Origin: Candidatus Nitrosomaritimum aestuariumsis
GTDB lineage: Archaea > Thermoproteota > Nitrososphaeria > Nitrososphaerales > Nitrosopumilaceae
Length of the DNA: 33,058 nt
NCBI GenBank assembly: GCA_013867335.1
Contig: JACEMX010000031.1
Span: 1-33,058, forward strand
Reading direction: 5' to 3'
Shown: positions 24,989 through 29,522 of the stretch, piece by piece
Numbering within the stretch: position 1 is the stretch's first letter
How the letters are laid out: each line of letters starts with the position of its first letter
Made by a program: the position numbers and the translations under genes
Notes under the pieces: model-generated
The model's database searches: none
What the model was told of the DNA's origin: nothing
Seen by the model: only the letters and a program-made list of their open reading frames with translations

Positions 24989-26347
24989 ATGGAAATGTTT
25001 GTTCAGAGAACAAAAGTTCTTCAAATATCCCTTGTTGCGATATTTTCTGCATTTTTAGTAGAACTAATTTTCGGACTCATTTCCAATAGTTTGGGATTAA
25101 TCACAGACAGCATTCACGCTTTACTAGACAGTATGGTCACAGTTATCCTTCTATTGGCAGCTAGGATGGCGATAAAACCACCTGATGAAGAACATACTTA
25201 CGGTCATGGAAAAATTGAGTCCCTTGGTGGATTAATTGGAGGAATTGCAATATTTTTGATTGCAATTTTTTTCATTTACGAGTCAATTAACAGATTGCAA
25301 AGCCCACCACCAAGTATTTTGCCAGGATTTTTTGCAATAATTGGAGGATTATACACTATAGGAGTTGATATTTTTAGAATTGTTATTTTGAGAAGATCAA
25401 TTTCTAAAATTGGCGGGACCACTCTCAAAGCCGATTTTTATCATGCCCTAATGGATTTGGGTTCCACTCTTGTTGCCATTGCGGGAATTGTTCTGGTAAC
25501 CTATGGATTCTATAGTGGTGATTTTATTGCAGCTTTAATCTTAGGAGGAGTTTTAGCAGTACTAAGTTTGAAATTGATTTACAGAACTTCACAGGAATTA
25601 ACAGATATTATTTCGCCTGAACTTGTAAAAAAGGTAAGACAGATTATTTCAAACACTGAGGATGTAATTGAGGTTGGCGCCATTTTAATGAGGAGATCCG
25701 GAGATACAATATTTGCCGATGTAACTATATCATTGAGAGGAGATACCAGTTTTGACAAAGCTCATGAAATCAGTAATCGGGTGGAAAATAATATCAAAAA
25801 AGAAATTTCCAATTCTGAAATCACAATACATTTTGAACCAACTTGGGAAAATGTTCCATTAGATGCAAAAATTTTTGATATTGCAAAAAATATTCCTGGA
25901 GTTAAAGGAGTTCATAATGTTAGCACACACAAATCAAAAGGGAAAACTTTCTCAAATTTACACGTCATGGTAGATAGGGAAATTAATCTATATTCAGCAC
26001 ACAAGATTTCAGAAATAGTTGAAGAAAAAATTCAAGAAAGTATTCCTGAAATTGAACATGTAACAATTCATTTGGAGCCATTTCTTGCAGTTCCAGAAAG
26101 TTTTAACGTAGAGGATAAAGCAACTGAGAGAAAAATCAGCGAGATTTTGAACAAGTATCCAGAAATCAAAAATATTGGCCGTATTGTGTCGCTTAATTTT
26201 GAAAACATACTCAAAATAGATATTGATTGTTCTTTTGATAGAAACTTGTCAATAGAAAAAGTCCATGATTTAACATCGGAGATAGAGCATCTGATTCGTT
26301 CTGAAATTCAAAATGCTGTAATTACTATTCATCCTGAACCTGTTTGA
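24989..26347 (+). CDS. Cation diffusion facilitator (CDF) family metal exporter with three tandem C-terminal cytoplasmic domains
   Basis: TM motifs TDSIHALLDSMVTV and KADFYHALMDLGSTLVAI; PDEEHTYGHGKIESLGGL; three homologous C-terminal blocks each ending in VTIHxEP/EITIHFEP-like strands. Confidence 0.93.
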   Translation: MEMFVQRTKVLQISLVAIFSAFLVELIFGLISNSLGLITDSIHALLDSMVTVILLLAARMAIKPPDEEHTYGHGKIESLGGLIGGIAIFLIAIFFIYESINRLQSPPPSILPGFFAIIGGLYTIGVDIFRIVILRRSISKIGGTTLKADFYHALMDLGSTLVAIAGIVLVTYGFYSGDFIAALILGGVLAVLSLKLIYRTSQELTDIISPELVKKVRQIISNTEDVIEVGAILMRRSGDTIFADVTISLRGDTSFDKAHEISNRVENNIKKEISNSEITIHFEPTWENVPLDAKIFDIAKNIPGVKGVHNVSTHKSKGKTFSNLHVMVDREINLYSAHKISEIVEEKIQESIPEIEHVTIHLEPFLAVPESFNVEDKATERKISEILNKYPEIKNIGRIVSLNFENILKIDIDCSFDRNLSIEKVHDLTSEIEHLIRSEIQNAVITIHPEPV

Positions 26348-26351
26348 AATT

Positions 26352-27539
26352 CTAGATTATGATGCTTGTAAGGTACATTATGAGCATTCCTAAGGCAAAT
26401 CCAGAGGCAACTGCAGCACTTGATAAATTCTTGTCTCCTTCCTCACGAATCCATTTTAAAATAATTACTATGACTTGAAATATTGCTCCTGCTCCAATAG
26501 AAAGGAAAACCACTGAAGAGAAAGGAGAAAATGCAAACCCTCCTACCCAAGCGCCAAAAATTGCAGGTGCTCCCGCAATTAGACCCAAACCTAACAGCTT
26601 TCCAACAGTAGATTTACCTCGAGAAAGAGGAGCAGCTATTGCAAGACCCTCTGTTGTGTTATGTAGTGCAAATCCCACAATCAGAAATGTACTAAAAGCA
26701 ATTGATCCTAAACCAACAGCAGCTCCAATTGCAAGACCTTCACCAAAATTATGCAATCCAATTCCTATTGCAATCATTAATCCAATGGCAACAGGTTTGG
26801 AAATTTTAAGGGAGTCTGCACTTCCCGTTAATTTTTCTGAAGTATAATACAATCCTAAAAAGGATAAGACAATAGTAGTTGCGATCAATAATGCACCATT
26901 AAAACTTCCACTGAGGTTTTCATCAGATACATCAAAGGCCTCCTCAATAGAATCAATTCCTAAAAATAATAGCAGACCGGCAGTTAAAGCCAAAAAGAAA
27001 TGATATTTGCTTTTACTAATTTTTTTAATAAATGGTAGCCAGAGAAGACCTATCATTACAGGAATAATTCCTACATAAGTTCCAATTATTGCAAAAAATC
27101 CTGCAAACTCCAAGTCTGGCTTTAATGCTGGTGCAGCAGCTTCGATTTCTCTTTCAAATCTGGTCCCATCATCTATAGTCAAGCCGATAATGTATGGTTC
27201 TGCAACATTCCATTCAAAGGGAATTCTAACTAGTGCTGTCTCATACCTTTCAAGAAATCTGTCAGGCTCAATTGCGGCAGGTTGTATCCTATCATTAACA
27301 TCGGCCATTACAACCTCAACTGGGATGGGGCCAGTATTCCTAACGGTAACATGAATTTCAGATTCAGAAAATTCAATTTTTTCAAGTGATATTTCTGGTA
27401 GAGGGGTACCAAGATCTAAAAGATCAGATCCAGGACCAAAAATGTAGCCAATCATAATTATTAGAAGAATAAATGGTGCTATTCCGCTGGCAATAATTTT
27501 TCCTTTTGATGATTTTTTACTAACTTCCATAATCAACAT
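26352..27539 (-). CDS. ZIP family metal transporter with N-terminal extracytoplasmic beta domain
   Basis: HNFGEGLAIGAAVGLGS and HNTTEGLAIAAPLSRG motifs; multiple TM segments; about 150-aa N-terminal non-TM domain. Confidence 0.9.
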   Translation of the reverse strand: MLIMEVSKKSSKGKIIASGIAPFILLIIMIGYIFGPGSDLLDLGTPLPEISLEKIEFSESEIHVTVRNTGPIPVEVVMADVNDRIQPAAIEPDRFLERYETALVRIPFEWNVAEPYIIGLTIDDGTRFEREIEAAAPALKPDLEFAGFFAIIGTYVGIIPVMIGLLWLPFIKKISKSKYHFFLALTAGLLLFLGIDSIEEAFDVSDENLSGSFNGALLIATTIVLSFLGLYYTSEKLTGSADSLKISKPVAIGLMIAIGIGLHNFGEGLAIGAAVGLGSIAFSTFLIVGFALHNTTEGLAIAAPLSRGKSTVGKLLGLGLIAGAPAIFGAWVGGFAFSPFSSVVFLSIGAGAIFQVIVIILKWIREEGDKNLSSAAVASGFALGMLIMYLTSIII

Positions 27540-28575
27540 CCTCTATTGGTTTAGAAGGATTATCCCTTGCAAGGAAGATTCCAACCCATCCCTTCTCAGA
27601 AAACTCTACTTTGTGAGCATGGAACAGATATTTTCCAGGATAAATATACTCAAATTCCATAATTCCACGCTCTGTCTGTGAAAGGGTTATCATGTCGGTG
27701 TAAAAGGACGGAACAGTGTCAGTTCCAGTTGGATAGTAATGGTACAAATTTCCATGTAAATGGAAATTATTGATTGGATCAAACTCAACCATATTGACCA
27801 CATAAACTCGAATTAGCTCATTTGTGTTGATTTGAATGGGATGATGTTGATAATAAAATGGAATAGTATTTGCAGCATAGAAATTATTTTCTGTGTCAAA
27901 ATCAGTATCCAAACCATTTAGAACCATTACCATTTCATCAGCTGGTGCTCTTTTCTCTTTTGGATCAACTATGAAAACACCATACAATCCATGGACAATG
28001 TGTTCCTCAAGTGGCATTACATGGCAATGATAAGGATGAACTCCAACAGGACCTGCTCGGAATTCATACGTGAATTTTCCTCCGCCAGATCCTACAATCT
28101 CAAATACACCATCCATCTCGGCAGGATGGATACCGTGAAAATGTATAGTGTGTTCTTTTGAACCATTGTTGATGAATTGGATCCTAACAAGATCACCTTC
28201 GGTAGCTCTAATAGTTGGGCCTGGAACTGTCCCATTAAAAGTCCAAACATTATAAAAAACACCTGGAGATACCTCCATTATTTTGTCATCCTCAGCTATT
28301 ATTGTAAATTCTCTTAATGTTGTTCCATCAGGTAGAGTTGAGACTTTGCCATAATTGAAATCTCGCAAATACTCCATTGGATCAAATTCCATGGTCGATT
28401 CAACATAAACGGGATCAATGACTTCTCCAGAAGTGGTAATCACACCACCAGTATGAGTAACAAACGTCTTTTGTTCAGTTTGAGCTTCAGAAATCGTAGG
28501 GAAAATTAATCCAACTGAGATTCCAAACATTCCAAGGAAAATGAATATCATAAGATTTGATCGATTGAATTTCAA
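27520..28575 (-). CDS. Two-domain multicopper oxidase
   Basis: HFHGIHPAEMDG, HPYHCHVMPLEEHIVHGLYG, NNFHLHGNLYHYYPTG, YLFHAHKVEFSEKGWVG. Confidence 0.93.
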   Translation of the reverse strand: MKFNRSNLMIFIFLGMFGISVGLIFPTISEAQTEQKTFVTHTGGVITTSGEVIDPVYVESTMEFDPMEYLRDFNYGKVSTLPDGTTLREFTIIAEDDKIMEVSPGVFYNVWTFNGTVPGPTIRATEGDLVRIQFINNGSKEHTIHFHGIHPAEMDGVFEIVGSGGGKFTYEFRAGPVGVHPYHCHVMPLEEHIVHGLYGVFIVDPKEKRAPADEMVMVLNGLDTDFDTENNFYAANTIPFYYQHHPIQINTNELIRVYVVNMVEFDPINNFHLHGNLYHYYPTGTDTVPSFYTDMITLSQTERGIMEFEYIYPGKYLFHAHKVEFSEKGWVGIFLARDNPSKPIEDVDYGS

Positions 28576-28607
28576 AGTTAGCTTTTAAAAGCAAGATAGA
28601 ATATTTA

Positions 28608-28627
28608 TAATTTAGCCTAAGCTAAAT
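28608..28627. promoter_or_regulatory. Palindromic operator candidate AATTTAGC-CTAA-GCTAAATT (DtxR/MntR-like)
   Basis: Perfect 8-bp arms; abuts the TATA-like TTATAAATA element (minus strand) upstream of the multicopper oxidase start at 28575. Confidence 0.55.
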
Positions 28628-28714
28628 TTCTTACCCTGTGCTAAATTTTTTAGTTTAGTCTAATATTGCTATTGGAGAATTAGGTTTAAACTGAAGAAAA
28701 TTTAATCCAAAAAG

Positions 28715-29215
28715 ATGAAAAAATCTGGAATTGCTTTGGCCGTGGTAGGTGGCCTCATTGGAGTTGGAATTATTCTTTCATTCTATGGGAATTACATATT
28801 ATTCGAAGAACTGGTTCAGGGTAATGGAGAAGTAGGAGTTGGAGAAAACTTAGTTATCGAAGTTGAGTTAGATAGTTCTAAAAGCCAAACTGGAATTTAT
28901 GCAATACAGATTTTAGATTTTAAAGGAGGGGTAGTTACTGCAACCATTATTGATCCCTCTAACACAACAATAGAATCAGAAGATATCAACCAAGAAGTGT
29001 TTGAAGGGTTGTTTGAAGTTACAACATCAGGAAATTACAAATTGCTAATTGAAAACAATGGAGAGACAGAGAATGTTTTTGGAGTGATAGGACCACAACC
29101 AGATGAAGGTAAACGGGCTTTATCAAATATTTCTATGTATATTTTGGTAATAGGTTTGGTAGGAATGGCCAGTATAGCAGTTTATCTATTCATTAATCGC
29201 AGAAGATCTAGTTGA
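28715..29215 (+). CDS. Membrane-anchored protein of unknown function (N- and C-terminal TM segments, extracytoplasmic beta domain)
   Basis: 166 aa; hydrophobic N-terminus and C-terminal TM plus RRR; divergent from the multicopper oxidase. Confidence 0.7.
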   Translation: MKKSGIALAVVGGLIGVGIILSFYGNYILFEELVQGNGEVGVGENLVIEVELDSSKSQTGIYAIQILDFKGGVVTATIIDPSNTTIESEDINQEVFEGLFEVTTSGNYKLLIENNGETENVFGVIGPQPDEGKRALSNISMYILVIGLVGMASIAVYLFINRRRSS

Positions 29216-29522
29216 GGAAACTATCCATTTTTTCTAAACCTTCAATAGCAGCGCCAAAATTTTCCCCGTCTTCAACAACCTTAGATAGTTTTTCGATATT
29301 TGCAGAAAATGTTGTTTTTCCATCTACTTGTTTTTGAATAATAAAACCGCAAGTTATCAAATAAGAAAGTCTGTCGGTTACTTCGTTTTCAGATATTGTG
29401 GCTTTTTCAGAAAGATATTGTAAATTTTTTTCACCGTCTTCTAACTCTGCAATTAATGCAGATGTTATAGGATCGAACATACAATCAACTACTTTTTCTC
29501 TATCATAGGAGTCATCCATCAA
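29208..29522 (-). CDS. Winged-helix transcriptional regulator (ArsR-like)
   Basis: 104 aa; 'ITSALIAELEDGEKNLQYLSEKATISENEVTDRLSYLITCGFIIQKQVDGKTTFSANIEKL' resembles wHTH with beta-wing. Confidence 0.65.
   Translation of the reverse strand: MMDDSYDREKVVDCMFDPITSALIAELEDGEKNLQYLSEKATISENEVTDRLSYLITCGFIIQKQVDGKTTFSANIEKLSKVVEDGENFGAAIEGLEKMDSFLN

Follow-up and report, generated by a model that had tools for sequence, protein, structure and literature searches.

What does a multicopper oxidase do when its gene is joined to that of a metal permease in an ammonia-oxidizing archaeon, and which metal controls the pair? This question is raised by a 33,058-nucleotide stretch of DNA from Candidatus Nitrosomaritimum aestuariumsis (hereafter the window), which is contig C150 of genome G000, a Nitrosopumilaceae-type archaeal MAG, in the set analysed here. 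The operon in the window is the known MCO1-ZIP pair of ammonia-oxidizing archaea, corresponding to Nmar_1131/1130 and NVIE_000600/000590. For years the MCO1 of these key ocean nitrifiers has been assigned in discussion either to copper uptake or to hydroxylamine oxidation, the pair being taken as a copper uptake system in PMC7785015 and MCO1 being put forward as a hydroxylamine-oxidation candidate in PMC5767755.

The oxidase-transporter operon

The genes considered at this locus are as follows.

26352-27539, minus strand: ZIP-family permease with an N-terminal membrane helix and a beta-sandwich ectodomain (from the ORF, Pfam and fold)
27520-28575, minus strand: two-domain multicopper oxidase of the MCO1 type (ORF with a TTG start)
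28715-29215, plus strand: small membrane-anchored protein of 166 aa, divergent and with an operator array in common with MCO-ZIP
29208-29522, minus strand: small winged-helix protein of 104 aa, weakly similar to CmtR, a sensor of Cd/Pb

An earlier sequence-only reading had described overlapping oxidase and ZIP open reading frames in one operon; both frames are present with an overlap of 20 bp, which shrinks to 11 bp if the ZIP starts at its second ATG (27530), and the single operon was borne out. The oxidase qualifies as a two-domain multicopper oxidase, with cupredoxin domains scoring above the Pfam cut-offs (Cu-oxidase_3, 79 bits; Cu-oxidase_2, 72 bits), a trinuclear copper site made up of four HxH motifs (H145/147, H183/185, H272/274 and H319/321) and a type-1 site (H142/C184/H192), and these copper ligands are kept with few or no exceptions among 109 homologues. 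The permease scored 21.5 bits against PF02535, below the cut-off of 35.1. Its predicted model (pLDDT 84) comprises the N-terminal membrane helix, the beta-sandwich ectodomain (residues 50-132) and a ZIP core, the best PDB matches are to BbZIP (E ~1e-5), and HN-x-x-E motifs at residues 263-267 and 293-297 are conserved among homologues. The fold of the ectodomain resembles that of the archaellum stator proteins FlaG/FlaF and, judging from the model, this domain might serve as an attachment for the oxidase or for the S-layer. Convergent to the ZIP gene, across a gap of 4 bp, lies a gene (24989-26347, plus strand) whose product is a CDF cation exporter and matches ZT_dimer several times.

The operator array at the promoter

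The following elements were located upstream of the oxidase gene, the operator cores being 14 bp long and scored against the consensus TTAGCCTAGGCTAA.

28602-28610, minus strand: TATA-like element TTATAAATA of the MCO-ZIP promoter, from sequence
28610-28627, minus strand: operator 1, 18 bp, touching the TATA box; core TTAGCCTAAGCTAA at 28612-28625, 13/14
28629-28646, minus strand: operator 2, 19 bp from operator 1; core TTACCCTGTGCTAA at 28631-28644, 11/14
28648-28665, minus strand: operator 3, 19 bp from operator 2; core TTAGTTTAGTCTAA at 28650-28663, 11/14

The sequence-only reading had reported a perfect inverted repeat, AATTTAGC-CTAA-GCTAAATT, abutting the TATA-like element. The repeat is indeed there and its 8-bp arms are perfect; it lies at 28609-28628, one base away from the position originally given, its 4-bp centre is not symmetric, and the TATA-like element overlaps its edge. 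The further 'half-sites' noted beyond it are likewise real sequences, although their description has to change: only three cores in the window, starting at 28612, 28631 and 28650, match the consensus at 11/14 or better, and since each lies 19 bp on from the last, the supposed half-sites are two complete, degenerate operators (2 and 3) in register with the first. The TTG start of the oxidase is ~30 nt from the TATA centre, and the MCO-ZIP mRNA is thus probably nearly leaderless.

Upstream regions of 137 MCO1 loci were collapsed to 112 distinct sequences, 110 of which contain a core of at least 10/14; a core of at least 12/14 was found in 98 of the 112 as against none of 2240 shuffles. The TATA-like element begins 1-2 bp past the core in 91 of the 110 promoters. 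A second core exactly 19 bp upstream scored 10.57/14 on average, compared with 3.76 at other offsets, and this partner reached at least 10/14 in 86/110 promoters, with a third site at 38 bp doing so in 11/110. The tandem-operator pattern, allowing two mismatches, occurred in 157 of 250 genomes of the family, mostly once in each, and summing the per-genome columns gave ~177 places versus 11 for a reversed control. A genome-wide scan for the motif at two mismatches was uninformative, since the control pattern gave more matches than the motif. Conservation, the shuffles and the 19-bp register rule out a chance palindrome. N. viennensis has a copper motif, TTCSGSMTTTGWACYANT, which is unlike the MCO1 operator.

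The predicted regulator

One protein of the same genome is the candidate for binding these sites.

G000:C90:12710: predicted MntR-type regulator, the only PF01325 protein detected in its own genome

Its Fe_dep_repress DNA-binding domain scored 67 bits (PF01325, above cut-off), its nearest PDB match is MntR (6kta, 7.3e-27), with IdeR/DtxR at ~1e-5 (DtxR, 5e-6), and it shares 41% identity with B. subtilis MntR over 119 residues. Against the NCBIfam MntR equivalog it falls just under the cut-off (135.7 bits; cut-off 138). All six Mn ligands (D8, E11, H77, E99, E102 and H103) are present, and the same set (DEHEEH) is found in 7/7 homologues adjacent to MCO1 and 6/6 adjacent to NRAMP genes. The family's other paralogue follows the DtxR/IdeR pattern, with Met/Cys ligands (MKSCEH), and the G000 MAG yielded no copy of it; Tyr22 is kept in the MntR-type protein and not in this paralogue. 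Counting against the assignment, recognition-helix residues 35-37 are SAP in this protein versus HPS in B. subtilis MntR; these residues read bases -5 to -7, so that their difference may explain the different inner sequence of the operator.

Gene order ties the regulator to its putative targets, the MntR gene lying directly upstream of MCO1 in three genomes (G038, G048 and G053), downstream of MCO1-ZIP in three more (G067, G090 and G098) and next to NRAMP in six. The regulator beside this type of operon carries DEHEEH rather than the Met10/Cys102-type site of the DtxR/IdeR branch. The box, which had been likened to those of DtxR/IdeR, is kept as a DtxR-superfamily operator whose nearest characterised regulator is MntR, not DtxR or IdeR. 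The winged-helix gene at 29208-29522 was discarded as a local regulator given its weak similarity to CmtR. The CDF exporter next door was also rejected as an MntR target, its upstream region being without a site (best match 9/14).

Other genes behind the same operator

The regulon was mapped by combining pattern searches with protein searches. Single-site matches away from MCO1 fell before genes for MntA/TroA-type ABC binding proteins (G005 and G046) and NRAMP transporters (G014 and G077). Across the family 37 of 38 distinct NRAMP promoters contain a core scoring 10/14 or higher, and all 15 promoters of MntA-type genes contain one scoring 11/14 or higher; most operator-bearing promoters of both kinds have the 19-bp partner. 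The palindrome was thus both conserved and present near metal genes when checked across genomes, and, as had been anticipated, it marks further metal-uptake genes. The NRAMP protein exceeds the cut-off of the NCBIfam MntH subfamily (458 bits; cut-off 430); the MntA-type binding protein gave matches to Zn and to Mn/Fe families, none of them above cut-off. In genome G053 two ZIP units and an ABC unit all stand behind the operator. If G053 is N. maritimus SCM1, as we assume, the ZIP genes would be Nmar_1130 and Nmar_1662 and the ABC genes Nmar_0328-0331. The names of these ZIP and ABC genes are taken from PMC6776035.

The divergent protein at 28715-29215 gave no match in Pfam or NCBIfam. Its homologues adjoin MCO1 operators in 102/137 loci, MntA operators in 13/15 and the NRAMP gene of G016, indicating that the protein tracks the operator and not one transporter, and it is a probable member of the regulon.

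Several other boxes were seen during these searches. The operator is absent before more distant ZnuA-like binding-protein genes, where a different common stretch, GGCATAnGnnTAATG-like, was found (L163, L164 and L165); it perhaps marks a zinc regulon. In G027 (L112 and L113) the boxes TTTAGCCTAGCCTAAA and GTTAGGCTAATCTAAC lie ~40 bp before SufB-like and reductase-like genes and possibly belong to the regulon of the DtxR/IdeR-like paralogue. Boxes of the TTAGGTTAACCTAA type occur in related families before a DtxR-family gene (L066, G089), where autoregulation is possible, and before a gene for a VIT1/CCC1-like transporter (L067, G076). At L359 (G161:C14) a tandem operator was also seen in front of an ABC transporter whose binding protein is PhnD-like.

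Exchange of MCO1 with Mn importers

Among the 250 family genomes MCO1 was present in 159, NRAMP in 44 and MntA in 15. MCO1 coincided with NRAMP only in G016 and with MntA only in G053, G154 and G046. Restricting the comparison to the 131 good genomes (at least 90% complete, at most 5% contaminated), NRAMP or MntA was carried by 33 of the 40 genomes without MCO1 versus 2 of the 91 with it (Fisher p ~1e-21, a value uncorrected for relatedness). Seven good genomes had neither an MCO1 call nor an alternative importer. MCO1 is split over contigs in one of these (G048) and the operator sits at a contig end in another (G018); in the remaining five (G104, G119, G164, G193 and G216) an alternative importer was not found, which counts against a manganese function.

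Exchanges between MCO1 and NRAMP/MntA occurred inside genera g1, g12, g15 and g18; g9 and g6 have NRAMP only, and MCO1 is missing throughout g9 and from many g12 genomes. Herbold et al. described Nitrosotalea as lacking MCO1 and having gained NRAMP, which they took as acid adaptation (PMC5767755). Since standard Mn importers stand behind the operator in lineages devoid of MCO1-ZIP, Mn uptake is the probable function of the pair.

Which metal does the operon serve?

We consider it likely, reasoning from comparative sequence analysis, that MCO1-ZIP is a Mn(II) uptake operon repressed by the MntR-type regulator. The sequences themselves show the array with its conservation and geometry, the type of regulator, the common regulon and the mutual exclusion with NRAMP/MntABC; that Mn is the metal used in vivo, that the operon is repressed, that metal is transported and that the oxidase has a part in it are what we infer. 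With Mn(II) sufficient, dimers of Mn-loaded MntR would occupy the row of 18-bp operators next to TATA/BRE and, bound at roughly -35 to -90, would block TBP/TFB. A fall in Mn would free the promoter, allowing synthesis of the oxidase and the ZIP and, probably, of the divergent membrane protein. The ZIP would import divalent metal, here Mn(II), and the oxidase would act outside the membrane where, as a best guess, its substrates are competitor ions, Fe(II) or Cu(I), or else ligands that bind metal, such that mainly Mn(II) reaches the ZIP; another guess is that it frees Mn from ligands. The role of the oxidase is the weakest link of this model. On balance we lean towards a broader proposal, that the oxidase-coupled ZIP may be the main Mn importer of most Nitrosopumilaceae, with a copper enzyme as obligate partner, repeatedly swapped for NRAMP or MntABC behind an unchanged MntR switch.

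The sequence-only reading had suggested Fe or Cu, a choice at odds with a nearest regulator that is MntR, with the retention of the Mn ligands and with operator-bearing alternatives that are MntH-type NRAMP and MntA-type ABC transporters. Uptake of iron(II) by the same operon, with Fe sensed by the MntR-like protein or by the DtxR/IdeR-like paralogue, keeps some plausibility because the same transporters (NRAMP, Mn/Fe ABC importers and ZIP) can also carry Fe(II); moreover N. maritimus has no importer specific for Fe, a task for which its ZIP and Tro genes have been proposed (PMC6776035), DtxR boxes are alike in sequence, and in G027 boxes of a similar kind lie before SufB and a reductase gene. 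We nevertheless judge iron unlikely, given that the regulators adjoining MCO1-ZIP and NRAMP are all DEHEEH and never MKSCEH, and that an oxidase making Fe(III) would counteract a ZIP for divalent ions.

Copper uptake, in which MCO1 turns Cu(I) into Cu(II) for import by the ZIP, is the published view (Kerou 2016, as cited; PMC7785015) and accords with the high copper need of ammonia-oxidizing archaea. In Cu-limited N. viennensis there was a mild rise of MCO1 and ZIP (log2 0.81 and 1.33, respectively), a response that favours copper over manganese, although it is dwarfed by that of MCO4_b (6.99 log2), and MCO1 patterns in N. maritimus are contradictory (PMC7785015). The operator is common to Mn-type importers and none was seen here at copper genes, the regulator is of the MntR type, and the pair gives way to NRAMP or MntABC, neither of which imports copper, so that copper seems to us very unlikely. 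The lowest probability falls to a role for MCO1 in ammonia oxidation (hydroxylamine or NO chemistry) with the ZIP merely supplying metal: the idea is prompted by the conservation of MCO1 in most ammonia oxidisers (PMC4010524, PMC5767755), but 40 of the 131 good genomes lack MCO1 and metal importers occur instead behind the same switch. We accordingly rank both published roles as less likely than Mn(II) uptake.

The MCO1-ZIP pair was already known; the switch and its meaning appear new, the operator, the MntR link and the exchange with Mn importers not having been found for MCO1-ZIP in the open-access literature searched. A defined operator, regulator and regulon make the role of MCO1 directly testable through its response to Mn. 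If our reading is true, Mn would join Fe and Cu among the metals sensed and scavenged by ammonia-oxidizing archaea, MCO1 gene counts would no longer be a copper marker, the oxidase plus ZIP would be a new kind of Mn importer, and oxidase-coupled Mn import would overturn the copper-uptake and hydroxylamine roles of MCO1.

Comparison with known systems

The transporter half of the window ZIP is like BbZIP, its best fold match, and differs in the extra N-terminal helix, the FlaG/FlaF-like ectodomain and the HNxxE in both helices; it also lacks the metal-2 ligand E240 (BbZIP numbering). As in Fet3-Ftr1 iron uptake, an extracytoplasmic multicopper oxidase is paired with a metal permease. In contrast to that system the partner is, by Pfam and fold, a ZIP-like permease for divalent ions and not FTR1, and the regulator and the replacement genes point to Mn.

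The closest parallel is B. subtilis MntR, whose regulon is mntH and mntABCD. In cryo-EM each of its dimers occupies an 18-bp site, a 9-bp inverted repeat, with 1 bp between sites; T stands at -7 in 19/20 half-sites, and cooperative arrays need Tyr22 (PMC11275975). The archaeal arrays likewise have a 19-bp period, with 18-bp operators 1 bp apart and T at -7 and -6, and the regulator is of the same family with the six Mn ligands and Tyr22, its targets including NRAMP and MntA-type ABC transporters. The differences lie in the operator sequence (half-site TTTAGCCTA), in residues 35-37 of the recognition helix and in the TATA/BRE promoter, and, unlike the B. subtilis regulon, the main archaeal target is an operon of a copper oxidase and a ZIP.
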